Source: a virus
Virus record (IMG/VR): IMGVR_UViG_3300010392_000069
Span: 1 to 34,333 of that record
Length of the DNA stretch: 34,333 bases
Strand: one strand, 5' to 3'
The notes beneath the pieces were generated by a model. That model had not been told where the DNA came from. It saw nothing but the letters and a program-made list of their open reading frames with translations, and did not search any database. Each line of letters starts with the position of its first letter. The stretch's first letter is position 1. A program made the translations under genes and the position numbers. Shown here one piece after another: positions 5,424 to 34,333 of this stretch.

Positions 5424-5458
5424 TGACTAGCATCGTTAGACTTCCTAAGTAGCAATTC

Positions 5459-5491
5459 GGGGGCGGTCCTTATGGGCCGTCCCCGTTTCTT
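5459..5491 (+). terminator. Rho-independent terminator after the recombination operon
   Basis: GGGGGCGGTC (5459-5468) pairs fully, with two G-U pairs, with GGCCGTCCCC (5475-5484) around the loop CTTATG. GTTTCTT follows. It sits between the SSB-like gene and the polymerase gene. Confidence 0.8.
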
Positions 5492-13752: not shown

Positions 13753-13838
13753 ATTGGGTGTCCATGGGGGAAAATAAATGGGTTGACAATGTTAAATGGA
13801 TACGCTAAAATACCGCCGTTGTTAGCGAACACCCAATT
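13752..13838. repeat. 10-bp inverted repeat bracketing a promoter
   Basis: AATTGGGTGT (13752-13761) and its exact complement ACACCCAATT (13829-13838) flank the sigma70-type promoter at 13783-13811. Paired operator half-sites on both sides of a promoter suggest a repressor bridging or looping the DNA. The left arm overlaps the end of the clamp-like gene. Confidence 0.5.
13783..13811 (+). promoter_or_regulatory. Sigma70-type promoter before the histone-like gene
   Basis: TTGACA (13783-13788), a 17-base spacer, then TAAAAT (13806-13811). This is a full -35 match and a 5/6 -10 match with ideal spacing, placed at the boundary between early and late genes. Transcription would begin near 13818. Confidence 0.8.
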
Positions 13839-14024: not shown

Positions 14025-14231
14025 ATGAGCATCATTGATTTCATCATCGACGGAGTAGAAGCCCCCAAATTCAGCACGAGTTCCGGAGGTGGCGCGGCCA
14101 AGAAGGGCAAAAAGCCCGCCGCGAAGAAGCGCGCAGCCAAGAAGCCCGCCGCTAAGAAGAAGGCCGCTCCTCGTAAGAAGGCCGCCGCCAAGAAACCCGC
14201 AGCGCGTAAGAAAGCTACCCGCAGGCGGTAA
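14025..14231 (+). CDS. Histone H1-like lysine/alanine-rich protein, 68 residues
   Basis: Residues 1-22 form a short non-basic head (MSIIDFIIDGVEAPKF). From about residue 25 onward the chain is nearly all Lys, Ala, Pro and Arg in PAAKK-type repeats, like the tails of bacterial H1 homologues and mycobacterial HU. GAAGGAG lies 7-8 bases upstream of ATG 14025, which decides the start. It should bind DNA non-specifically and could compact phage DNA or compete with host nucleoid proteins. Its own promoter and terminator make it a one-gene unit. It resembles the tail of the SSB-like protein at 4398-5423. Confidence 0.72.
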   Translation: MSIIDFIIDGVEAPKFSTSSGGGAAKKGKKPAAKKRAAKKPAAKKKAAPRKKAAAKKPAARKKATRRR

Positions 14232-14244
14232 TTTCTCCCACGTC

Positions 14245-14271
14245 GTCTGATAGCTAGTAGGACTATCAGAC
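14245..14271. repeat. 9-bp perfect hairpin
   Basis: GTCTGATAG (14245-14253) and CTATCAGAC (14263-14271) form a perfect stem with a 9-base loop, 14 bases after the histone-like gene. No T-run follows, so it is more likely an RNA-stabilising or pause structure than a stand-alone terminator. Confidence 0.5.
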
Positions 14272-14282
14272 TTAGCATGGCC

Positions 14283-14334
14283 CCGACGGGCACCGTTTTG
14301 ACTCTCTTTTCCGGTGTCCGTCGGCGGTCTTATT
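14283..14334 (+). terminator. Probable terminator hairpin
   Basis: CCGACGGGCACCG (14283-14295) pairs over 13 positions, with one G-U, with CGGTGTCCGTCGG (14312-14324). CGGTCTTATT follows, a weak T-rich tail. It separates the histone-like gene from the late operon. Confidence 0.6.
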
Positions 14335-14343
14335 AAAACATAA

Positions 14344-14447
14344 GCAGCAGCGAAGCGTAGCGTAGCTGGTCGCTTAGACAGGTGCCCCCGCAGCAGCGAA
14401 AGCGGACGTGGAGCCAGCGAAGCTAAAAGCCGCCGCAGCAGCAAAGG
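14344..14447. repeat. GCAGCAGCGAA-type repeats before the late genes
   Basis: GCAGCAGCGAA occurs exactly at 14344-14354 and 14390-14400, with degenerate copies near 14413 (GCCAGCGAAGC) and 14434 (GCAGCAGCAAAGG). No start codon opens a frame across it. Its place just upstream of the packaging genes makes a terminase-recognition site conceivable; decay of Ala/Lys-rich coding DNA is the alternative, since GCA GCA GCG AAG reads AAAK in the frame of the next gene. Confidence 0.35.
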
Positions 14448-15783: not shown

Positions 15784-15920
15784 AGATGCGATGTTCAGTT
15801 TGCGGCCATGAATCGGAAGATACTAGTGCCGTAGACGTGAAAGAAGGAAAAGGTACACGCCAAGTGCTGATGTGTGGTAAGTGTGCTTCCTCGAATAAGA
15901 AAGACAAGGAGAAGTACTGA
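15780..15920 (+). CDS. 46-residue zinc-ribbon microprotein
   Basis: Two CxxC knuckles, CSVC (5-8) and CGKC (32-35), separated by 23 residues make a canonical zinc ribbon; the tail is Lys-rich (SNKKDKEKY). It overlaps both neighbours (ATGA at each end), so it is translated as part of the terminase operon. The function is unknown; nucleic-acid or terminase binding are possible. Confidence 0.6.
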   Translation: MKMRCSVCGHESEDTSAVDVKEGKGTRQVLMCGKCASSNKKDKEKY

Positions 15921-17254
15921 TGCGTACGCCAAAGGTTCTCGACCCCCACAACAAAGACGTGCGAGAACTGCTATTGGCGTACCGTTATCGTTGGTCGTTG
16001 CACCGTCGCCCGGAACAGTGGGCAGATGATAAAGACGATTGGACGTATTGGTTCTTTTGCGCGGGGCGTGGGGCTGGTAAGACCAGAAGTGGTGCGGAGA
16101 AGGTGCGGGAGTGGGCCGAGAAAGGGGTATATCAGGAGATTGCCCTTATCGCTCCAACCCATGATGACGTTGAAAAGGTTATGCTAAACGGACCGGCTGG
16201 TATTATGCGTATCTGTCCTCCGTGGTATCGGCCGACATTCAACGCCCGCAGTCGTATCCTCCAATGGCCTGACCGTATAACAACCGATGCTGATGGGCGG
16301 ATTATTTCCAGACGTGACGGCATGAGAGCTTATTGCTACTCCGCTGAGAAACCAGAAAAATTCCGAGGTCCACAGTTTCAAGCGGCATGGGCTGATGAGA
16401 TATGCGCTTGGCGTTTCCCGTTAGCATGGGAACTCCTCGCGTTCGGCATCCGTCTTCCCCCGCGCCCCCGCGTAATTATCACTAGCACTCCGAAACCTAT
16501 TCCAGTAATCCGGGAAATAATGGATTACAAGGGGTTATATGTTACTTCAGGCACCACATACGATAACGTGGCAAACCTCTCAGGCGTTTTCTTCGACACA
16601 ATTATCAAACGTTTTGAAGGCACTCGACTCGGACGCCAAGAACTTCTTGCAGAGTTGTTGTCCGATAATCCACACGCACTCTGGAAATCAAGCCTCATCG
16701 AGAGGTCAAGACTAGTATGCGGTGAGAAAGAACTGCCAGAGTTCGATGATGTGGTGATAGCGGTTGACCCGAACGCATCTGAGTCTGAGAACGCAGATGA
16801 TTGTGGTATCATTGTCTGTGCGTCACGTTGGGATGGTAACACAACACACTATTACACACTAGAAGATGCGACCATGGTCCAACCCACCCCGGAAGAATGG
16901 GGACAAGAGGTTGTGCGTGTCTTCAAACGTTGGCGAGCACATCGCGTTGTCTTTGAAGGAAACAAAGGTGGCAACATGGGTAAATCCATTATCCACAACG
17001 TAGACAACGACGTGCCAGTTAAAATCGTCTATGCCATGACAGGAAAGACAAGGCGAGCGGAACCAATCGCACAATTAAGCGAGCAGGGTCGAGACCACCA
17101 CTGGGGGTTATTCCCAGAGTTGGAAAGCGAAATGCTTGATTGGAACCCCAAGATGCCACAGGAACAACAAGAAAGCCCCGACCGAATGGATGCGAAGGTT
17201 TGGGGTTATACAGACCTTATGGAACACTGCGAACTTCAACAAGGAGTGATATAA
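15920..17254 (+). CDS. terL: Terminase large subunit
   Basis: ATP-driven packaging motor and nuclease, 444 residues. Walker A is AGRGAGKTRS (Lys54), Walker B is QAAWADEICAW (Asp159, Glu160), the coupling motif is ITSTPKP (188-194). The nuclease domain starts with VIAVDPNASE (Asp283). The C-terminal GRDHHWGLFPELESEMLDW pattern is that of Terminase_6 family enzymes. AAGGAG precedes the ATG, which overlaps the stop of the zinc-ribbon gene. The portal gene starts on its stop codon (TAATG). The family placement leaves the packaging mode (cos, pac or other) open. Confidence 0.95.
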   Translation: MRTPKVLDPHNKDVRELLLAYRYRWSLHRRPEQWADDKDDWTYWFFCAGRGAGKTRSGAEKVREWAEKGVYQEIALIAPTHDDVEKVMLNGPAGIMRICPPWYRPTFNARSRILQWPDRITTDADGRIISRRDGMRAYCYSAEKPEKFRGPQFQAAWADEICAWRFPLAWELLAFGIRLPPRPRVIITSTPKPIPVIREIMDYKGLYVTSGTTYDNVANLSGVFFDTIIKRFEGTRLGRQELLAELLSDNPHALWKSSLIERSRLVCGEKELPEFDDVVIAVDPNASESENADDCGIIVCASRWDGNTTHYYTLEDATMVQPTPEEWGQEVVRVFKRWRAHRVVFEGNKGGNMGKSIIHNVDNDVPVKIVYAMTGKTRRAEPIAQLSEQGRDHHWGLFPELESEMLDWNPKMPQEQQESPDRMDAKVWGYTDLMEHCELQQGVI

Positions 17255-33120: not shown

Positions 33121-33573
33121 ATGAAAGCATCATTGGTGTTATTGGCACTGTTCCTGTCCGGATGTGGAACTCTCGCTCCGGGTGCGTTTGGGAAGACCAC
33201 GTACAACCTAGAGTGGCACTCCGAGACATACGAACAGGATGTACAGGATTTCAAGGTATCGGTCAAAGCTCCGGCAGGTGACCTAGTGAAGGTTATGTCT
33301 AACCTCGGCTACACATGGAATGCCGACGGGTCTGGGTTCGTGAAGGTGAACTCTACGCAGGATATCGACTCTACCGGACAGGCCGACCTGATACGGGCAC
33401 TCGGTGAGATGCAGACCGACACCCTCCAGAGTATCGTAGGCATCCTAGCCCCGCTCGTCCCAGAGGTGGTACGAGGCAAGACTGAGAGAGCGGCCATATC
33501 AGCCGAGTCCGAAACCGTGTCCCGGCAGGAGGTCTTGGACCTCGTCGAACAGATGCTGTCCACTGGACGCTAA
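33121..33573 (+). CDS. Lipoprotein, 150 residues (possible outer-membrane lysis or exclusion protein)
   Basis: A classic lipoprotein signal: basic start, hydrophobic core LVLLALF, then lipobox LSGC with acylated Cys15; Gly at +2 would favour the outer membrane in Gram-negative bacteria. The mature part contains a beta-type segment (YNLEWHSETYEQDVQDFKVSV) and a long C-terminal helix (SRQEVLDLVEQML). It is followed by a terminator. In a lysis cassette it could be an o-spanin-like protein, though it lacks the usual Pro-rich composition and is longer. Confidence 0.68.
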   Translation: MKASLVLLALFLSGCGTLAPGAFGKTTYNLEWHSETYEQDVQDFKVSVKAPAGDLVKVMSNLGYTWNADGSGFVKVNSTQDIDSTGQADLIRALGEMQTDTLQSIVGILAPLVPEVVRGKTERAAISAESETVSRQEVLDLVEQMLSTGR

Positions 33574-33588
33574 CTGTACTATCAGTGC

Positions 33589-33621
33589 GGGGATGGGGCG
33601 TTCGCCCTATCCCCTTTATCT
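33589..33621 (+). terminator. Rho-independent terminator of the late operon
   Basis: GGGGATGGGGC (33589-33599) pairs through 11 positions, with one G-U, with GCCCTATCCCC (33604-33614) around a GTTC loop. TTTATCTATT follows. This is the strongest terminator in the window and closes the late transcript. Confidence 0.85.
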
Positions 33622-33635
33622 ATTGGATAATCTAC

Positions 33636-33674
33636 TTTAGATTACGTCTAAATACTTGTTAAGGTACCTTAACA
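33636..33674. promoter_or_regulatory. Two operator-type dyads, including an 18-bp perfect palindrome
   Basis: TTTAGA (33636-33641) and TCTAAA (33647-33652) form a dyad with a 5-base spacer. TGTTAAGGTACCTTAACA (33657-33674) is a perfect 18-bp palindrome ending 17 bases before the -35 box at 33692. Both fit dimeric regulator sites, upstream-activator or repressor. Confidence 0.6.
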
Positions 33675-33691
33675 TACCTGGTCGATTTCTC

Positions 33692-33720
33692 TTGACAACG
33701 TGGGGGAAATGCTGTATAAT
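33692..33720 (+). promoter_or_regulatory. Consensus sigma70 promoter
   Basis: TTGACA (33692-33697), exactly 17 bases, TATAAT (33715-33720): a 12/12 match at ideal spacing. Transcription would begin near 33727, into the structured untranslated region. It is probably an early promoter read by the unmodified host polymerase. Confidence 0.9.
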
Positions 33721-33937
33721 GAAGGTACATTTGAAAGCGTCCCGGAGAGCGAGGCAGGGTTGAAACCTTGACCACGCGCAGTACACTCCCTCTGTGATAA
33801 AGGCAGTCTAGACGGCCTTGAAACGAGCATCGAGAACCCCGGTAACATAGCTCATTGATATTTGAATCGCACCCCAATCAACCGCAAGCGAACCTTGGTA
33901 CGTGACGGGTGAACGAAAGCACGATACAGTGAACGGC

Positions 33938-33957
33938 AGGAGCCTACGCGCTCGGCA
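33938..33957 (+). repeat. 20-base direct repeat, copy 1 (hairpin apex)
   Basis: The segment begins AGGAGCCTACG and ends CGCTCGGCA. It lies inside a hairpin closed by GAACGG (33931-33936) and CCGTTC (33959-33964), extended by ATAC/GTAT. Internally GAGC can pair with GCTC. It is identical to 34005-34024. Confidence 0.9.
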
Positions 33958-34004
33958 ACCGTTCCAGTATTTTCTAGTTTTCGCCCATGGGGCGGTCGAG
34001 GGAA

Positions 34005-34024
34005 AGGAGCCTACGCGCTCGGCA
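34005..34024 (+). repeat. 20-base direct repeat, copy 2 (hairpin apex)
   Basis: Identical to 33938-33957 but set in a different stem: GGGGCGGTCGA and AAGGAG on the left, CTCCTTCGACCACCCC on the right, with one C-A mismatch and one bulge. Flanking sequences of the two copies do not match each other, so only the apex is conserved. Confidence 0.9.
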
Positions 34025-34119
34025 CTCCTTCGACCACCCCGGGGCACTCTCCCTTTCTTGTTTGTTCGGTCTTAGGTACTTCATCCCGGAGTACCGATAA
34101 CCGCACAAAGGAGAATATC

Positions 34120-34333
34120 ATGAGCAACCTTACCTTGAACCTTAACAACGCAGAGTGCGCGGGTTACCACCAGTTCCAGACGGAGGAGGCAGAGACTTTC
34201 GGGTCTTTTGAAGTCTTCCACATGGACGGTGAATGGTTCTGGCAGGCTGGTTTCCCCGGATGTCTAGCAGACTCCGACGACCCGTACGGTCCATATGAGA
34301 CCTCACACGCGGCGTTTGAAGACGCACAAAGCC
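34120..34333 (+). CDS. Small hypothetical protein, 3' end outside the window
   Basis: ATG 34120 follows AAAGGAGAATATC and opens a frame that remains open to the last base (71 codons). The product starts MSNLTLNLNNAECAGYHQF and contains FHMDGEWFWQAGFPGCLAD and GPYETSHAAFEDAQS. The pattern, aromatic strand then PGC then GP(Y/F)xT with a helix, is seen in small early phage proteins of unknown function. It would be the first gene of the transcript starting near 33727. Confidence 0.65.
   Translation, partial: MSNLTLNLNNAECAGYHQFQTEEAETFGSFEVFHMDGEWFWQAGFPGCLADSDDPYGPYETSHAAFEDAQS

Follow-up and report, generated by a model that had tools for sequence, protein, structure and literature searches.

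What is the function of the largest non-coding region in this viral genome? The window that we have analyzed is a whole viral record of 34,333 nt. It corresponds to a siphovirus, and its credible genes are nearly all found on the + strand. The region between positions 33574 and 34119 spans 546 nt and is the largest gap in the record: With our hand-made gene set, the other gaps reach at most about 223-270 nt, and this one is at least twice as large as any of them. The initial annotation had described it as a striking 545-base gap without a gene, and this is largely right. No coding ORF is present in it: The ORFs that fall within the gap have codon scores around zero or below, while most genes score between 0.1 and 0.4 with a codon model trained on the long genes of this phage. 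Small ORFs or a leader peptide were also looked for in the gap, none was found with a convincing Shine-Dalgarno sequence (SD) and a plausible length.

We consider it rather probable that this region is formed by a promoter and a structured 5' leader which acts in cis, and that the model structures described below give this leader translational control of the operon starting at 34120. Rather than a free RNA, the leader would probably be a switch for translation. The features on which this proposal is based are collected in Table 1.

Table 1. Features of the non-coding region and its surroundings. Positions refer to the whole window.
Feature	Positions	Strand	Details
Replication block	from position 1	+	SNF2-type helicase, PD-(D/E)XK nuclease, AAA_24 ATPase, DNA polymerase A, primase
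Late block	terminase 15920-17254; last ORF 33121-33573	+	terminase, portal, protease, major head protein, tape measure
Intrinsic terminator-like hairpin closing the late (structural/lysis) block	33589-33614	+	11-pair stem, 8 G-C, followed by TTTATCT
Overlapping AT-rich dyads, possible operator	33628-33652		TAATCTA-CTT-TAGATTA (33628-33644); TTTAGA-TTACG-TCTAAA (33636-33652)
Perfect 18-bp palindrome, possible operator or activator site	33657-33674		TGTTAAGGTACCTTAACA, once in the window
Sigma70 promoter	33692-33720	+	TTGACA-17-TATAAT, 12/12, the only such match in the window; 0.01 expected in shuffles
5' part of the leader	33727-33914	+	no structure beyond chance, window z 0.06 to 1.0
Stem-loop A	33931-33964	+	lower stem GAACGG/CCGTTC, internal loop CAG x GGCAA, apical stem GAGC/GCTC, hexaloop CTACGC
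Stem-loop B	33994-34035	+	10-bp lower stem GGTCGAGGGA/TCCTTCGACC (as RNA GGUCGAGGGA/UCCUUCGACC); apex 34005-34024
Hairpin C, predicted to sequester the SD	34055-34115	+	UUCUUGUUUGU (34055-34065) pairs with ACAAAGGAGAA (34105-34115); cap GGTACTTC/GGAGTACC
SD of the putatively regulated gene	34106-34112	+	CAAAGGAGAATATC-ATG
Putatively regulated gene, truncated where the record ends	34120-34333	+	codon score 0.296

The promoter and the terminator, like the duplicated apex described below, are read directly from the sequence. The terminator hairpin sits 16 nt past the stop codon of the last ORF of the late block. It is followed by the dyads, the palindrome and the promoter, from whose position transcription should start around 33727. 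A strong terminator, dyads and a 12/12 sigma70 promoter had all been listed in the initial annotation, and our coordinates and counts bear them out. The dyads and the palindrome may be operators. The center of the palindrome falls at -61.5 relative to the predicted transcription start. This is a position similar to that of class-I activators, yet the promoter is already a full consensus.

A second promoter-like sequence deserves a separate comment. The next best match in the window (TTGACA-17-TAAAAT, 11/12) is found at 13783-13811, within the gap that runs from 13752 to the next gene, and is flanked by the inverted repeats TTGGGTGT ... ACACCCAA; it may be the start of the late block. A short ORF with an SD is present at 14026-14231, coding for a protein with a basic tail rich in Lys and Ala (AAKKPAAKK), similar to histone H1; its start seems better placed at 14026 than at the GTG in 13878. 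Two strong tandem hairpins (14233-14345, z -5.1) are found downstream of this gene. The second one (CCCCGACGGGCACCG...CGGTGTCCGTCGGCGG, followed by TCTTATT) is a likely terminator.

The transcript from 33727 to 34119 folds better than its shuffles (z = -4.0), and sliding windows allow us to locate the structure. The windows starting at 33676, 33751 and 33826, which jointly cover 33676-33975, have z values of 0.06, 1.02 and 0.88. The values fall to -3.4 for 33901-34050 and to -8.0 for 33976-34125, the lowest among the 912 windows of both strands of the whole record. The initial annotation had suggested about 390 nt with several hairpins: This is valid for the 3' portion of about 200 nt, which is structured beyond chance, while the 5' half (33727-33900) is no better than shuffled sequences. 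All these structures are equilibrium computations on one sequence, and co-transcriptional folding or ribosome binding may alter them. Within these computations, stem-loops A and B and hairpin C are stable at 20, 30, 37 and 42 C, each having been folded in as many as six contexts. The second strongest folding value in the record corresponds to the minus strand at 2234-2383 (z -7.0), within genes of the + strand.

The most striking prediction concerns the gene at 34120, whose ribosome-binding site is included in hairpin C (folding z = -4.06). Between 20 and 42 C, the inner pairs of the SD have a probability of at least 0.98 (at least 0.96 for the inner part in every context), and the outer ones of 0.72-0.97. 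Opening the segment from the SD to the AUG (34105-34123) in the full leader costs about 17 kcal/mol (16.9-17.0). This cost ranks first among 40 genes of the record, an approximate rank, as some high-cost genes have poorly supported starts. When the leader is shuffled keeping its dinucleotides, with 34104-34180 unchanged, the cost is only 4.3 +/- 1.6 kcal/mol, and none of the 300 shuffles is as high as the native sequence. If the start of the transcript is moved to 34066, hairpin C is lost and the cost falls from 12.4 to 2.0 kcal/mol. The predicted occlusion of the SD and the start codon by the leader exceeds chance, as would correspond to an SD-sequestering leader.

A series of truncations maps the lock on the SD to 34053-34115, and an additional contribution of about 5 kcal/mol at the AUG to 33841-33861. 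This segment can pair with the start-codon region (34115-34134), and the pairing reaches a probability of about 0.9 when the transcript extends into the gene; 9 and 15 of 1000 shuffles give a comparable duplex (p about 0.01), so that taken alone it is no more than moderately unusual. The pairing competes with a helix which would close the molecule (33744-33749/34047-34052) and which appears only in transcripts ending before the gene. We have rejected the closing helix as a fixed feature, its probability is at most 0.06 once 31 nt of the gene are added. Both long-range pairings come from the folding model and should be considered uncertain.

Stem-loops A and B are located upstream of hairpin C. 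They share an identical 20 nt apex, AGGAGCCTACGCGCTCGGCA, found at 33938-33957 in A and at 34005-34024 in B; no further copy is present in the window. In both cases, an internal loop with nAG facing GGCAn is followed by the apical stem GAGC/GCUC and the loop CUACGC. The predicted pair probabilities are 0.99 for A and at least 0.96 for B in all contexts. The lower stems are not identical: With only these two copies to compare, changes on both sides are seen in two of the six facing pairs and a change on one side in another, all of them remaining paired. A constant apex on top of lower stems which have changed and are still paired is the pattern expected if both the apex and the pairing are under selection. 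A and B look as a duplicated binding site for a protein or a ligand would look, and we regard them as a candidate for such a site. The stems are separated by 29 nt. Pairing between the loop and another loop is not apparent, as the complements of CUACGC (GCGTAG, GCGTA and CGTAG) are absent from 33574-34333.

We have also looked for relatives of this region. None was found by blastn among 50,697 phage records, and the exact 19 nt apex does not appear in viral contigs. A 16 nt apex gave 12 hits in viral contigs, all of them inside ORFs of at least 107 codons. We have searched for the pair of apices with free stems or free loops in viral contigs, and with free stems in 84,980 species genomes: In both cases, the hits examined were tandem repeats in coding sequences or unrelated repeats. 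The proteins of the neighboring genes have no detectable relatives. The closest relatives of the terminase are at most 45% identical in annotated phages and at most 42% in viral contigs; they lack a 12/12 promoter, and their matches to the leader are at chance level only.

The product of the gene at 34120 has a pI of 4.05 and no Lys or Arg in its first 71 amino acids, and it has no match in Pfam, PHROGs, NCBIfam or by tblastn in phages. A protein this acidic would not obviously bind RNA.

These results are consistent with the following mechanism. The late block would end at its terminator, and transcription would start near 33727 from the promoter, which has operator-like palindromes upstream. 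The final 200 nt or so of the leader would fold into the three adjacent hairpins A, B and C. Hairpin C would tie the SD of the gene at 34120 to a pyrimidine-rich tract, and the segment 33841-33861 could also cover the start codon. As the SD and the start codon would both be covered, little translation of the first gene is to be expected in the default state. The lock would be opened or strengthened either by a putative trans factor bound at A and B or through leader processing. A cis leader with translational control of this gene was among the suggestions of the initial annotation. Our results support it: The predicted occlusion is far beyond that of shuffled leaders, and the pairing is present in every context from 20 to 42 C.

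A more detailed version of this mechanism is frankly speculative. The apices (AG-GAGC-CUACGC-GCUC-GGCA) might bind a phage or host factor which gates the SD-locking hairpin, and possibly also the polymerase. Such a phage riboregulator would time the expression of an operon whose first protein is strongly acidic and possibly involved in host takeover. If the leader does control translation as proposed above, we would have an unusually strong example of a promoter coupled to a translation start which is off by default, in an unstudied phage lineage. The duplicated candidate recognition element could also be used to fish out the binding factor.

The main rival of translational control is processive antitermination by an element unrelated to the put RNAs, which we consider unlikely. 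In this case, A and B would be an RNA loading site, either put-like or nut-like with a protein, which modifies the polymerase and allows it to pass downstream terminators, and hairpin C would be secondary. In fact, the arrangement of tandem stem-loops close to the promoter (about +205 to +309) is reminiscent of put sites and of the lambda nutL-N region. There is also a terminator-like hairpin inside the replication block (5458-5485, 12 bp, 10 G-C), just before the polA-type polymerase gene (5507). It is a possible internal terminator, although its U-tract is poor (TTTCTTGG). On the other hand, the strongest anomaly of the leader is located at the SD, which is not required for antitermination, and we have not recognized any boxA in the leader by eye.

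The put RNA of HK022, which carries out antitermination without a phage protein, had been mentioned in the initial annotation as a model for this leader. We have built a covariance model (R1) from nine aligned put RNAs, which include putL and putR of HK022 together with relatives retrieved by blastn; covariation is found in 7 of the 13 pairs of the alignment. HK022 putL scores 97.0 bits and putR 73.4 bits, both are in the model by construction, so these values only give the scale of true matches. The best site in 33574-34200 has 2.0 bits (E = 0.67), which corresponds to chance, and the best one in the whole window has 11.7 bits (E 0.39). A score of 2.0 bits against 73-97 for true put RNAs leads us to reject this identity, both in sequence and in structure.

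It is quite improbable that the region codes for a free regulatory or structural phage RNA, starting at 33727, ending near 34050-34065 and acting in trans. The strong promoter and the lack of ORFs would agree with it, as would one predicted fold which is closed by the 6-bp helix mentioned above and followed by a U-rich tract. Nevertheless, a terminator scan found no terminator-like site between 33727 and 34333. In the folding model, the U-rich stretch at 34053-34066 is an anti-SD arm and not a terminator tail, pairing with the SD with a probability of 0.7-0.99, and both facts weaken the case for a free RNA. An RNA end near 34065 had been suggested previously; there is no terminator at this position, and 34055-34065 is the 5' arm of the hairpin which covers the SD. 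If so, this case would show that a U-rich tract resembling a terminator tail can prove to be an anti-SD arm. The low probability of the closing helix in the presence of the gene also argues against a free RNA, as does the 5' half, as unstructured as its shuffles. A search with Rfam had been proposed as a check: None of its 4227 covariance models matched the window at the gathering score, and only chance-level matches appear with E up to 10.

An element for mRNA stability or processing is somewhat less probable still. The hairpins might be cut by a double-strand RNase or act as a 5' stabilizer, SD occlusion being incidental or relieved by cleavage. The stems at 33983-34045 and 34055-34115, long and almost uninterrupted, would be suitable for this role, but exposing the SD takes far more energy than chance would explain, and this is difficult to consider as incidental. 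Finally, it is very improbable that the region acts as DNA, as a replication origin or a packaging site, with the RNA structure as a by-product of inverted repeats: Its size, its AT-rich palindromes and its position between modules might suggest so, but the folding value is clearly lower for the + strand than for the complementary RNA (z -8.0 versus -2.8), the pairing is specific for the SD, and the gap shows no switch of skew, although it lies where the window ends.

The proposed translational-control leader may be compared with known systems. ROOL and GOLLD are also long structured non-coding RNAs found in phage genomes. The RNA described here is shorter, its structure is confined to about 200 nt adjoining the ribosome-binding site, and it has no credible match in Rfam. 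The translational operators of T4 which sequester the SD are short sites located at the SD itself. In both cases an mRNA structure, a bound protein or both would govern the start of translation of one phage gene, but the leader studied here is long and has an upstream stem-loop in two copies. The put sites of HK022 also have two stem-loops downstream of an early promoter, at a similar distance in the case of putR, about 270 nt downstream of PR (PMC9378689). Unlike our A and B, with identical apices and stems 29 nt apart, the put stem-loops differ from each other.

The leader of the lambda N gene differs in several aspects. Here the apex is a different one and is present twice, no boxA is recognized by eye, and the leader has its own hairpin which would lock the SD. 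The N protein is rich in arginine, while the first gene product of our operon is acidic and devoid of Lys and Arg in 71 amino acids. In lambda, nutL is found about 200 bp upstream of N, and N together with Nus factors represses N translation through a structured spacer (PMC5725501). The general arrangement of the lambda leader (PL - nutL - structured spacer - N) is also found here: a strong promoter, a long untranslated leader, promoter-proximal hairpins of the protein-binding type, a structured spacer and the first gene, whose translation is likely controlled, as in lambda (PMC5725501).
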